Source of the DNA: Gammaproteobacteria bacterium RIFCSPHIGHO2_12_FULL_63_22
GTDB lineage: Bacteria; Pseudomonadota; Gammaproteobacteria; Xanthomonadales; Xanthomonadaceae
Assembly: GCA_001801685.1 (NCBI GenBank)
Contig: MGYJ01000094.1
Span: 1 to 64,000 of the forward strand
Direction: 5' to 3'
Length of the DNA: 64,000 nt
Made by a program: the position numbers and the translations under genes. This document shows positions 1 through 3,869 of the stretch, piece by piece; position 1 is the first letter of the stretch; every line of letters begins with the position of its first letter. Below the pieces are notes generated by a model. That model was not told the DNA's origin. It saw only the letters and a program-made list of their open reading frames with translations, and searched no databases.

Positions 1-24
1 TCCTGCGCGGTCTGGGTCTTCACG

Positions 25-261
25 GCAACACCCTGCTGTTCCGTCGCCAACGCAGGTCGCCCGCTGCCCCATTCGCAGGCTTGCTCGGTGGGGACCAGCG
101 GCCGATCCTGCGTTCTGTCCCCAGTACAACTTCCGGCGAGCGCAGCGAAGCCCACGCAATCTGCCTGCAGGCGCAGGATCGCCAGGCAGTCCTCACCAAG
201 CACGCAGTGCGACTGACGGCGCCGGGCGACCTGCGTTGGCCGCAGTACGGCAGGGTGTTGC
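25..261. repeat. Large imperfect inverted repeat in intergenic DNA
   Basis: Bases 25-112 reappear in inverted form at about 172-261. Both arms contain GCAACACCCTGC, CCAACGCAGGTCGCCC and GATCCTGCG in the same order and spacing, so the arms are diverged copies of one element about 88 bp long around a roughly 60 bp centre. A frame on the minus strand stays open from a GTG near 263 to base 1, but its product is Arg/Ala/Gln-rich and matches no family I recognise. I treat the region as repeat DNA rather than a gene. The left edge of the window may cut the element. Confidence 0.6.
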
Positions 262-292
262 ACTGAAGCTCAGTTGGTCACAGGTGCGCGTA

Positions 293-363
293 GGTGGTGG
301 CCGGGGATTATTTTGACCAAGCCGATCCCGTGTGGCGACTCAAAATGATCACCGGCCACCACC
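293..363. repeat. 24-bp-arm inverted repeat, possible IS-end remnant
   Basis: The arms are 293-316 and 340-363 and pair at 22 of 24 positions, with a 23-base loop. Each arm carries GGTGGTGGCCGG followed by an AT-rich ATTTTGA end. The repeat lies 38 bases downstream of the queE stop codon and could act as a strong hairpin in queE mRNA. The wording of the arms resembles subterminal repeats of IS21-type elements as I remember them. No transposase is present, so the IS origin is only a guess. Confidence 0.5.
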
Positions 364-401
364 CCACCCAGAACCATTGATCAAATACGCCCAGACCCGC
401 T

Positions 402-1094
402 CTACTTGCCCTGCGCATCGCCCCACAACTGCTTATGCAGCTGCATCTGGAACCGCACCGGCAACCTGTCTTCGAGAATCCACTCGGCCAATTCCCGCGC
501 CGGCAATTCACTGAAGCTCGGCGAAAACAACACCTCGCAGCGCGAGTCGAGTTCATGCTCGAGCAACATCGACTTCGCCCAGTCGTAATCGCCGCGATTG
601 CAGATCACGAATTTCACCTGGTCGTTCGGCGTCAGCAGCGGAATGTTCGACAGCAGGTTGCGATGCATCTCGCCGGAGGCCGGCGTCTTCAGGTCGAGTA
701 CGCGTGATACGCGCAGGTCCACGTCGCTGATGTCGATGGCGCCAGAGGTTTCCAGTGATACCGAATAGCCGGCATCACAGAGTTTCTTCAGCAGGCCGAT
801 GCAGCGCTTCTGCGAGAGCGGTTCGCCGCCGGTCACGCAGACGTGGCGGACGCCGTGTTTCGCCACTTCGGCGAGTATCGCGTCCATGTCCCACCATTGG
901 CCGCCGTGGAAGGCGTAGGCGGTGTCGCAATATTGGCAGCGCAAGGGGCAGCCGGTCAGGCGCACGAAAACGGTTGGCCAGCCGACGCTGCGGGCCTCGC
1001 CCTGCACGGACAGGAATATTTCAGTCAGGCGGAGTCGGTCGGGCGCGAGTGCGTCCAGCGGTTCGGCACCCACGTGCAGTGCATCGGTGCTCAT
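402..1094 (-). CDS. queE: 7-carboxy-7-deazaguanine synthase QueE
   Basis: Radical SAM enzyme that converts 6-carboxytetrahydropterin to 7-carboxy-7-deazaguanine in the cytosol, a step in preQ0/queuosine biosynthesis for tRNA modification. The 230 aa protein shows the radical-SAM cysteines in CPLRCQYCDTAYAF (about residues 50-63), the substrate-side motif LSVQGEARSVGWPTVF before it, and CVTGGEPL (SAM-binding GGE) near residue 90. It is the last gene of the tol-pal run, just after cpoB. The ATG at 1094 has a poor ribosome site. A duplicated copy of its first 12 codons precedes it behind a much better site, and the two overlap as ATGA, so translation may be coupled or begin upstream. Family assignment is firm; the translation start is open. 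Confidence 0.93.
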   Translation of the reverse strand: MSTDALHVGAEPLDALAPDRLRLTEIFLSVQGEARSVGWPTVFVRLTGCPLRCQYCDTAYAFHGGQWWDMDAILAEVAKHGVRHVCVTGGEPLSQKRCIGLLKKLCDAGYSVSLETSGAIDISDVDLRVSRVLDLKTPASGEMHRNLLSNIPLLTPNDQVKFVICNRGDYDWAKSMLLEHELDSRCEVLFSPSFSELPARELAEWILEDRLPVRFQMQLHKQLWGDAQGK

Positions 1095-1129
1095 GGCTCG
1101 GCGCCCACGTGCAACGCATCGGTACTCAC
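1060..1129 (-). repeat. 35-bp tandem duplication of the queE 5' end (12-codon leader ORF)
   Basis: On the minus strand, copy A (1129 to 1095) begins GTGAGTACCGATGCG and copy B (1094 to 1060) begins ATGAGCACCGATGCA. B is the true start of queE. The copies differ at 6 of 35 bases: five are synonymous codon changes (Ser, Ala, Leu, Gly, Glu) and one is GTG versus ATG at the start codon. Because 35 is not a multiple of three, copy A reads 12 codons and ends at a TGA that overlaps the queE ATG. An AGGCGG sequence sits about 8 bases before the GTG, whereas the queE ATG has no comparable site. Confidence 0.8.
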
Positions 1130-1145
1130 GCAGGTGCCGCCTGGA

Positions 1146-1967
1146 TCAGCGCGCGTCCAGGCTCAGTACGCGCAGCCGGCTGGTCGCCAGGCGTGCGGCA
1201 TCGCTGCCCGGGAATTCGTTGATGACACGATTCAGCGTCTGCCGTCCCGCGCCTGCATCGCCCATCTCGATCTGGCAGTAGCCCTTCTTCAACATCGCGT
1301 CAGGCGCTTTCGGCGAGTCGGGGAAGCTGGAAAGCAAGGTATCGAAACTGCGCAACGCAATCGGATAGTTCTGCGTGGCGTAATAACTCTCGCCCAGCCA
1401 GTACCAGGCATTCGCCGCCAGCGGTGCGTTGGGATAGTCCGCCAAAAAGGTCTGGAAGCTACGCGCCGATTCGACGTAATCACCCTGGCGCAAGGCGGAC
1501 AGGGCAATGTCATACGCGCCCTGTCCATTCAGTGCACGGGCATCCAGGTCCACGGCGTTTGGCGACGGCGGACGCGAACTCGTACCAGGCGCAGTGCGAG
1601 GCGGTGGATTGGCTGCAGACGGCGGCGGCAGCGGCGGCGTGGACCCACTTGCCGCACTACCCGCTTCCATGCGCTGCAAGCGGCTGTCCAGATCAATGTA
1701 TTGATCCTTCGCCTGCTGCTTGAGCTGCGCATTTTCGTTCTGCAATTGCTCAACCTGGTTGCGCAGTGCCTGCACTTCCGATTGCATCTGCGTCACGCGG
1801 TTGAGCAATTCCACATTTGCCTGGCCGGCCGAACTGGACTGCGACGCGTCCGCGGCTTCAAGCCGCGATACGCGTTCGGCCAGGCTCAGCTTCTGCGCGA
1901 AGGCGGGCGCTGCCAGCGACATCGCCAGCAACGCCACTCCGAGGGAACGCATCTTCAGGACGGCCAT
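1146..1967 (-). CDS. cpoB: Cell division coordinator CpoB (YbgF)
   Basis: Periplasmic partner of the Tol-Pal system that coordinates peptidoglycan synthesis with outer-membrane constriction. The 273 aa protein has an N-terminal signal peptide with a likely cut after APAFA (about residue 24), a coiled-coil stretch at about 27-105 rich in Leu/Glu/Gln heptads, a Pro-rich linker at about 110-135, and C-terminal TPR repeats at about 150-270 (for example YDIALSALRQGDYVESARSF and ALRSFDTLLSSFPDSPKA). This is the standard YbgF layout. It follows pal with only a few bases between them and precedes queE. Length is normal and no defect is seen. Confidence 0.93.
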   Translation of the reverse strand: MAVLKMRSLGVALLAMSLAAPAFAQKLSLAERVSRLEAADASQSSSAGQANVELLNRVTQMQSEVQALRNQVEQLQNENAQLKQQAKDQYIDLDSRLQRMEAGSAASGSTPPLPPPSAANPPPRTAPGTSSRPPSPNAVDLDARALNGQGAYDIALSALRQGDYVESARSFQTFLADYPNAPLAANAWYWLGESYYATQNYPIALRSFDTLLSSFPDSPKAPDAMLKKGYCQIEMGDAGAGRQTLNRVINEFPGSDAARLATSRLRVLSLDAR

Positions 1968-1970
1968 GTA

Positions 1971-2495
1971 TCAGCGCGTGGTGTAGACGATTTCGACACG
2001 ACGATTGCGCGACCAGCAATCTTCGCTGGAATCGGCGCAGGTCGGGCGCTCTTCGCCGTAGCTGATCACGCTGATCTGGTCGGCCGAACCGCCGTTGCCC
2101 TGGATGGCTGCCGACACCGCGTTGCCGCGACGCTCGCCCAGGCCCAGGTTGTATTCACGCGTGCCGCGCTCGTCGGCGTTGCCTTCGAGATTCATGCGCG
2201 CTTCGGGACGGTCACGCAGGTACTTCGCGTGGCAGGCGATGGCGGCCTGGAAATCCGGCTTCAGCGTGTCCTGGTCGAAATCGAAATAGACCACGCGCTG
2301 GCGAAGGCAGGAATCGGTGTCGAGGTCGGCCGGCGAGTACTTGCCCGGAGCAGTGTCGGTAATAGCGCCGGTGGTGGCGCCGGTGGTGGTTTCGCCGGCG
2401 GTGGTGTCGGCAGGAACTTCCTTCACCTTCTTGGTGCACGCGGCAAGGCTCATGGCGATGGCGGCGGCGATCATCAGGCGGGTGGTGTTGTTCAT
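1971..2495 (-). CDS. pal: Peptidoglycan-associated lipoprotein Pal
   Basis: Outer-membrane lipoprotein that binds peptidoglycan and TolB and anchors the envelope. The 174 aa precursor has a lipoprotein signal with lipobox LAAC (Cys about residue 20), a short Thr/Ala-rich linker, and an OmpA-like domain from about 65 to the end containing VYFDFDQDTLKP, NADERGTREYNLGLGERR (the diaminopimelate-binding loop) and NRRVEIVY at the C-terminus. The gene lies between tolB and cpoB, the usual order. The 63-base gap to tolB is the longest in this run and could hold a secondary promoter, but I see no clear one. Confidence 0.96.
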   Translation of the reverse strand: MNNTTRLMIAAAIAMSLAACTKKVKEVPADTTAGETTTGATTGAITDTAPGKYSPADLDTDSCLRQRVVYFDFDQDTLKPDFQAAIACHAKYLRDRPEARMNLEGNADERGTREYNLGLGERRGNAVSAAIQGNGGSADQISVISYGEERPTCADSSEDCWSRNRRVEIVYTTR

Positions 2496-2558
2496 GAAGT
2501 CTTCCTTGTTATCAGGGTATTGGGGGGAAGCAGTTCAGGTAGTTTGCTCGCGGCAATG

Positions 2559-3869
2559 TCAGCGTTGCCTGAACGGACCCCAGGCGGGCTCGCGGACGTC
2601 ACCGTTTTCGGTGCTGACGATGCGCAGCCGGACCCGGCCGTCGGCAGACACAGCATACAACACGCCACGCCGGCCTTCCTTCGTCGCATACAGCAACATG
2701 CTGGCATTGGGGGCGAAACTCGGCGATTCGTCGAGATTTCCCGGCGAAAGCGTCAGCCAGCGGGAACCGCCGCCGAAGCTCTTGTCCAGGATGGCGATGC
2801 GGTAGATGTTGCCCGAGCCCTGGGCCATGCCGATCTTCTTTCCATCGAATGAGACGGTGGCGCGGGCGTTGGATTCACCCTGGAAGCTGACTCGGGTCGG
2901 CTCGCCGCCCGTGGCCGCCACCGAATAGACCTGTGGCTTGCCGGCCCGGTCGGACGTGAACAACAGGGTCCGGCCGTCGGGCATCCAGGTCGCCTCGGTA
3001 TCGATGCCGTAGTGGCGGGTCACCTGGGTCAGCGACTTGCTGGCCAGGTCCATCACGTAGATTTCCGGATTGCCACCCTTCGACAGGGTCATCGCCAGAC
3101 GGCGCCCATCCGGCGAGAACGACGGCGCACCGTTGATGCCCTTGAAGCTGGCAACCACATCACGGCCGCCGGTGTTGAGGTCCTGCACGTAGATAGTGGA
3201 GTTGCCACGCTCGAAACTCACATACGCCAACTTGCGGCCATCGGGGCTCCAGGCCGGCGACAGCAGCGGCTCGGGCGAGCGCACGATCACTTGCTCGTTC
3301 ATGCCATCGGAATCGGCGACCTTCAGCATGTAGCGCGTGCCCGGGCCGAGGCCCGTGGCCGTTACATAGGCAACGCGAGTCCAGAACGCGCCACGCACGC
3401 CGAGGATTTTTTCGTAGATCTCGTCGGCGATCTGGTGGCCGACTTCACGCATGCTCTTTTCGCGACCGGGAATCGGCAGGCCCAGCAAGCGCGAGCGCTT
3501 GGCCACGTCATACAGGTCGTATTCCACCTGGTAGCCACCATCTGCCGTGTCGACGATTCGCCCGACCACGATGAAGTCCTGCTTGCGCAGGCGCCAGGCG
3601 TCGAAGTCGATTTCGCTGCCGCGGGTCGGTCGCGCGGGCGGCATATTGGCGACCGGCAGCGAGCGGAACTGGCCCGAGCGATTCAGGTCGTTGCGGATCA
3701 CTTCGGACACGTCGGTGCCCGGGGCCACGTTGCGGCCCTGGTAGGGCATCGGCACGACCGCGATGGGCAGGGATGCCTCGTTGCCGGATACCAATCCGAT
3801 ATCCAGGCCCTGGGCTTGCAAGCCGGATGCCGACAACAGCATCAGCACCATCAATAACAGTCGTTTCAT
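2559..3869 (-). CDS. tolB: Tol-Pal system protein TolB
   Basis: Periplasmic protein that links the inner-membrane TolQRA complex to Pal. The start at MKRLLLMVLM is preferred because it follows a signal-peptide pattern (cleavage after GLQAQ) and forms an ATGA overlap with the tolA stop; an upstream in-frame ATG would add nine unlikely residues. The mature protein has an N-terminal alpha/beta domain (about 25-160) and a beta-propeller of WD40-like repeats with SPAWSPDGRKLAYVSFE, APSFSPDGRRLAMTLSKGG and ATWMPDGRTLLFTSDRAG. The length of 436 aa is typical. Confidence 0.96.
   Translation of the reverse strand: MKRLLLMVLMLLSASGLQAQGLDIGLVSGNEASLPIAVVPMPYQGRNVAPGTDVSEVIRNDLNRSGQFRSLPVANMPPARPTRGSEIDFDAWRLRKQDFIVVGRIVDTADGGYQVEYDLYDVAKRSRLLGLPIPGREKSMREVGHQIADEIYEKILGVRGAFWTRVAYVTATGLGPGTRYMLKVADSDGMNEQVIVRSPEPLLSPAWSPDGRKLAYVSFERGNSTIYVQDLNTGGRDVVASFKGINGAPSFSPDGRRLAMTLSKGGNPEIYVMDLASKSLTQVTRHYGIDTEATWMPDGRTLLFTSDRAGKPQVYSVAATGGEPTRVSFQGESNARATVSFDGKKIGMAQGSGNIYRIAILDKSFGGGSRWLTLSPGNLDESPSFAPNASMLLYATKEGRRGVLYAVSADGRVRLRIVSTENGDVREPAWGPFRQR

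Follow-up and report, generated by a model that had tools for sequence, protein, structure and literature searches.

The window, i.e., the whole stretch of DNA analyzed here, comprises positions 1-64000 (64,000 bases) of a contig of 74,034 bases. Close to its start, the minus strand encodes two genes. The first, cpoB (ybgF; 1146..1967 in the open reading frame list), specifies a tol-pal system protein that matches TIGR02795 (E 1e-35) and the Pfam domains TolA_bind_tri and TPR_6. The second, queE (402..1094), encodes a 7-carboxy-7-deazaguanine synthase of 230 aa, which scores 365.6 bits against TIGR04349 (cut-off 300) over residues 21-230, the profile beginning at residue 21. This profile has a single queE match in the whole genome.

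The junction between both genes contains two units of 35 bases, again on the minus strand. Copy A (1095..1129) starts with GTG, and copy B (1060..1094) consists of the first codons of queE, starting with its ATG. The units form a direct repeat without any gap between them and are identical at 29 of the 35 positions. Copy A is the body of a leader ORF of 12 codons (1091..1129; VSTDALHVGAEP) with a TGA stop, which translates as V-S-T-D-A-L-H-V-G-A-E-P-stop and starts 16 bases after the cpoB stop. Six bases ahead of the GTG lies a Shine-Dalgarno (SD)-like sequence, CAGGCGGC (1136..1143), found as an anti-SD duplex and with its AGGCGG core at 1142-1137. The leader stop (TGA, 1093-1091) and the queE start (ATG, 1094-1092) overlap in an ATGA (1091..1094).

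The copies differ at unit positions 1, 6, 15, 16, 27, and 33, and all six differences are transitions. The differing codons (copy A/copy B) are GTG/ATG, AGT/AGC, GCG/GCA, TTG/CTG, GGC/GGT, and GAG/GAA, of which the last five pairs are synonymous and the first are the start codons. The original prediction is borne out in its description of the locus: the alignment of the copies confirms a tandem queE start (1129-1095 and 1094-1060) with five synonymous differences plus GTG versus ATG, and sequence and translation confirm a GTG behind AGGCGG and a TGA overlapping the queE ATG.

At the other end of queE, a palindromic multi-copy repeat (window 1-377) has its end about 24 bases beyond the queE stop codon, and the contig break falls within the repeat. 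It has 34 matches in its own genome on both strands (the window's own counted), including five other copies that are near full length with 87-92% identity. Positions 1-420 hold three inverted-arm pairs, and about 450 bases are common to two other copies. The repeat is MITE-like and has no Rfam match in 1-3000 at E-values up to 1.

Reality and distribution of the duplication

With a score of 23.8, copies A and B are the top adjacent unit pair of the window at periods of 20-80 bases. Since the highest score in 40 order-4 Markov simulations of 64 kb was 13.3, the pair is a real duplication and not a chance resemblance. A degenerate pattern allowing up to three mismatches matched copies A and B only. 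One other DNA match in the genome (C67:1114-1147, 89%, E 2.5e-4) was considered as a source from which the unit might have been copied; it lies at the junction of two permease-like genes, has the sequence GAGCCATGAGCACC in common, and was rejected as chance.

Short tandem duplications are a common type of mutation, not a rare one. In a census of adjacent pairs of 24-120 bases scoring above 20, the own genome (the window plus 20 other stretches, 409,788 bases) has nine pairs, with the A/B pair counted and two pairs stemming from one repeat region. The relative G004 has ten in 400,000 bases, and the other queE loci have ten in 375,307 bases, several of these loci having a repeat in common. The period is divisible by three in 7 of 9, 4 of 10, and 5 of 10 pairs, respectively.

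The gene queE itself is widespread: it was found in 59 of the 61 genomes searched as relatives and in 26 of the 27 genomes of the genus (own genome counted in both). For the comparison of loci, 46 queE loci were drawn from titled genome records, and 76 locus rows carried the queE motif. Three of these rows are the window itself, and some genomes occur twice among the other 73. None of these 73 rows contains a comparable tandem pair (next best score 13.3). With the variable QueE tail left aside, amino acid identity reaches up to about 82% (38 rows, five of which repeat genomes already present), and the nearest comparable queE belongs to another species. Over the stretches compared by eye, several same-genus loci seem identical to named Arenimonas or Lysobacteraceae records (L004 and L034, L003 and L032, L002 and L031), which makes an Arenimonas relative the probable host. 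Among these rows, which are at most about 82% identical to the window queE, the duplication is seen in one genome, and it is most likely lineage-specific. A scan of viral contigs for the leader peptide pattern gave no match. Neither a duplicated queE start nor a queE leader appeared in the titles and abstract openings of the open-licence literature among the matches listed.

The same loci show other repeats. In many relatives of the same genus (e.g., L002-L005, L011, L013, L014, and L020), the interval from the cpoB stop to the queE start holds, by eye, a short GC-rich inverted repeat with arms of the CCGGC...GCCGG type. Locus L053 (Aquimonas voraii) has another small duplication, an adjacent repeat of 14 bases (13/14) in the queE tail region. 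Several relatives have longer adjacent repeats, of about 90-105 bases, in the queE neighborhood: L054, L059, L078, and L079 (period 93), L051 and L077 (91), L010 (95), L066 (104), and L069 (105).

Start signals and RNA structure

The best anti-SD duplex amounts to -5.8 kcal/mol ahead of copy A versus -2.6 kcal/mol ahead of copy B. Copy A thus holds the sole good SD match, and the queE ATG has none. In the predicted fold, the queE ATG is paired with copy A (probability 0.97-0.99). The SD and GTG of copy A are in turn paired with copy B, with a probability of 0.87-1.0 at six of the seven positions reported and 0.54 at 1140. One arm of this fold (1127..1139, minus strand) spans part of the SD and the GTG and pairs with 1064-1076.

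The computed opening energy of the copy A start, for naked RNA, is 24.7 kcal/mol, i.e., strongly closed; in a sample of the genome, values of at least 24.7 occur at 3 of 227 approximate ORF starts and, among inner coding positions, at 9 of 227. The queE ATG is ordinary in this respect (16.4 kcal/mol, a value reached by 67 of the 227 starts), and a single-copy arrangement would give 18.6 kcal/mol. When the RNA upstream of the queE start is held open, the value drops from 16.4 to only 15.0 kcal/mol. Unfolding by a ribosome on the leader would therefore help little, and any coupling of leader and queE would have to be carried by reinitiation.

Folds of the whole region are no more stable than those of shuffled sequences (z -0.76, 42/200; z -0.60, 44/200). 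Selection on RNA structure as the cause of the six differences was rejected: among the 64 possible ways of distributing these bases over the copies (the real one counted), the copy A start is equally or more closed in 8 and the copy B start equally or more open in 35.

Two mechanisms raised by the original prediction are not supported at this locus. One of them, a transcription attenuator, was rejected, as a terminator or antiterminator after the leader, a fold signal (z -0.76 and -0.60), and a codon run are all absent. The sole terminator-like site in 300-2000 is located inside queE (546-534; one found versus a shuffle mean of 1.4), a search of 1-3000 against Rfam gave no match, and the 12 leader codons include one GAT and one CAC but no regulatory run. 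The other, a frameshift into queE, lacks a slippery site, the end of copy A reading, by eye, GCC GAG CCA TGA without an X-XXY-YYZ heptamer.

Synonymous divergence and its possible histories

If copy A diverged freely and only copy B was constrained, six synonymous or start-preserving differences out of six have a probability of 0.0025-0.011 (kappa 1-8). With the start codon set aside, five of five synonymous changes have a probability of 0.007-0.023. Changes in copy B are expected to be synonymous because copy B is itself coding. Codon counts from six genes of the window place the rarer member of a pair in copy A for AGT and TTG and in copy B for GCA and GGT, with GAG/GAA about even. From this split, perhaps two or three changes fell in copy A.

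The QueE tail ahead of the RLRLTE block varies between species in both length and sequence. Five pairs of 18-codon tails, compared gap-free and not mutually independent, have synonymous to nonsynonymous changes of 4:3, 3:3, 1:0, 5:12, and 4:16; the other tail pairs listed (7-codon) have 0-4 synonymous and 0-3 nonsynonymous changes. Judged by these comparisons, long QueE tails are not strongly constrained, which weakens all models based on coding selection, rivals included. As long tails show many nonsynonymous changes and short ones few changes of either kind, these models do not strongly predict a ratio of five to none either.

We do not read the pattern as a demonstration of selection. At a single locus chosen post hoc, the synonymous-only divergence is suggestive but weakly supported evidence for selection on the peptide. 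The synonymous pattern described in the original prediction is confirmed, whereas the coding selection on the leader that it considered possible is not established (probability 0.0025-0.011 with copy A free). The locus is a caution that a gene and its partial copy may diverge only synonymously without selection on the copy. The leader peptide is probably functionless.

We consider it most plausible, with a probability of roughly 0.55, that a 35-bp tandem duplication created a coupled leader ORF that feeds queE by termination-reinitiation and whose peptide probably has no function. Three other histories were weighed against this reading.

The best placed of them, although unlikely, is an in-frame duplication of 36 bases (12 codons, copy A ending in GAG CCN), from which one junction base was later lost or is missing from the assembly. 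QueE would at first have carried a duplicated N-terminal tail encoded by both copies, and both would have diverged synonymously only. Copy A would have become a leader ORF when the junction Pro codon lost its third base. Such a history would explain the synonymous-only change without any special function of the peptide, and copy B indeed reads GAA CCG where copy A has GAG CC before the ATG. It also agrees with the variable length and sequence of the QueE tails ahead of the conserved domain and with the adjacent repeats of the own genome, 7 of 9 of which have a period divisible by three (coding status aside), but this share is just 4/10 in G004 and 5/10 at the other queE loci. Moreover, the lost base must sit exactly on the unit border, because the 35-base copies align without gaps, and the junction site is, by eye, no homopolymer run. 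Frequent indel errors were not seen either: a high error rate of the assembly was rejected, since the 2 candidate frameshifts in 25 gene pairs turned out on inspection to be wrong-frame reference ORFs.

In a second history, which we regard as improbable, copy A is the resident queE start and copy B came in with the queE of a related strain; recombination, or else a mis-assembly mixing two strains, would have brought them together. The differences would then have arisen while both were normal queE starts, and divergence of the coding type would be expected in both copies. The window has different neighbors in the two gene trees (L007 for cpoB, 96/89; L019 for queE, 94/81), yet this difference falls short of significance (p-AU 0.33 and 0.32 with the queE data, 0.068 with the cpoB data). 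The rows in this test are distant, giving it little power for a close donor; the trees left out L031-L035 (genomes already present) and, for cpoB, L002 (frame below 150 aa). The genome has a single queE, and by eye no shared junction sequence is available to guide the joining. A xenologous origin of queE was rejected on the same non-significant tree tests.

The third and least favored history ascribes the pattern to selection on the peptide, the leader exerting nascent-peptide or attenuator-type control over queE. The divergence is synonymous only, and the leader has its own SD and a start/stop overlap. Against it, the duplication is seen in one genome (0 of 73 other queE locus rows), there is no nearby terminator, no Rfam match, and no fold better than shuffles, just two of the 12 codons are read by Q-modified tRNAs, and the actual assignment of bases to copies gives no unusual start accessibility (8/64 equal or more closed). 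We hold this to be very unlikely. Marginally less probable still is its specific form, in which a leader copied from the QueE N-terminus is selected at the amino acid level and its peptide controls or meters queE reinitiation in cis. Should the peptide matter after all, it would represent a route to new regulatory leaders.

Termination-reinitiation and known systems

In the preferred reading, that of a coupled leader with a probably functionless peptide, the 5' end of queE would have been duplicated in tandem (35 bp) within the lineage of this genome; the repeat itself is visible and we infer its timing. The original ribosome-binding site would have stayed ahead of copy A and turned it into the 12-codon leader ORF. 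The leader TGA overlaps the queE ATG because 35 equals 3n+2 and queE begins with ATGA. An NTGA results from any 3n+2 duplication of a start codon that has A as its next base, so that selection is not required for the stop overlap. Ribosomes would initiate at the copy A GTG, possibly arriving from cpoB 16 bases upstream, terminate at the leader TGA, and start anew at the queE ATG, which lacks a good SD of its own. Copy A would persist as an intact reading frame from start to stop codon. Its synonymous-only divergence would be mildly unlikely for six changes, part of which fell in the constrained copy B.

The gapless units, the SD values (-5.8 versus -2.6 kcal/mol), the ATGA overlap, and the pairing of the queE ATG with copy A all agree with this course, as do the lack of a comparable pair in the 73 other rows and the frequency of short tandem duplications in the sampled DNA of this genome. 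The probability of 0.0025-0.011 for the synonymous pattern, the closed copy A start (24.7 kcal/mol), the small gain from opening the upstream RNA (16.4 to 15.0 kcal/mol), and the lack of a strong ribosome-binding site (RBS) before the queE ATG speak against it. The leader probably feeds queE by termination-reinitiation. The coupling put forward in the original prediction is supported by the anatomy of the junction (SD ahead of copy A, ATGA overlap), and its support is limited to that anatomy. The locus would clearly illustrate how a single event can create a coupled leader ORF: when a gene start reading ATGA is duplicated in tandem by 3n+2 bases, the resulting leader immediately has the former ribosome-binding site and an NTGA overlap.

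Three known systems invite comparison. The HisL attenuator leader, as described in passages of PMC12345169, is likewise a short leader upstream of a biosynthetic gene. It carries seven His codons in a row together with a stem-loop, whereas the leader studied here has no regulatory codon run and no terminator and lies behind cpoB. Closer are the synthetic nfORFs (passages of PMC13255528), in which short upstream ORFs boosted translation. As at queE, these are frame-shifted short ORFs of more than 8-10 codons that end beside the target AUG; they needed a strong RBS about 4 nt before that AUG, whereas the best site here reaches -2.6 kcal/mol.

The closest likeness is to the coupled ORF pairs with NTGA (-4 nt) spacing. 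According to passages of a review (PMC12548453), NTGA is by far the commonest spacing of neighboring ORFs, coupling works best at -4 to +3 nt, and the second gene benefits from an SD without requiring one. The queE leader shares with such pairs the ATGA stop/start overlap (1094-1091) and the better SD on the upstream ORF, having its own initiation signal CAGGCGGC, though its start is strongly closed. It differs from the pairs described there in its short upstream ORF of 12 codons, which duplicates the start of the downstream gene itself. In a coupled pair of this kind, translation of queE would depend on that of the leader.
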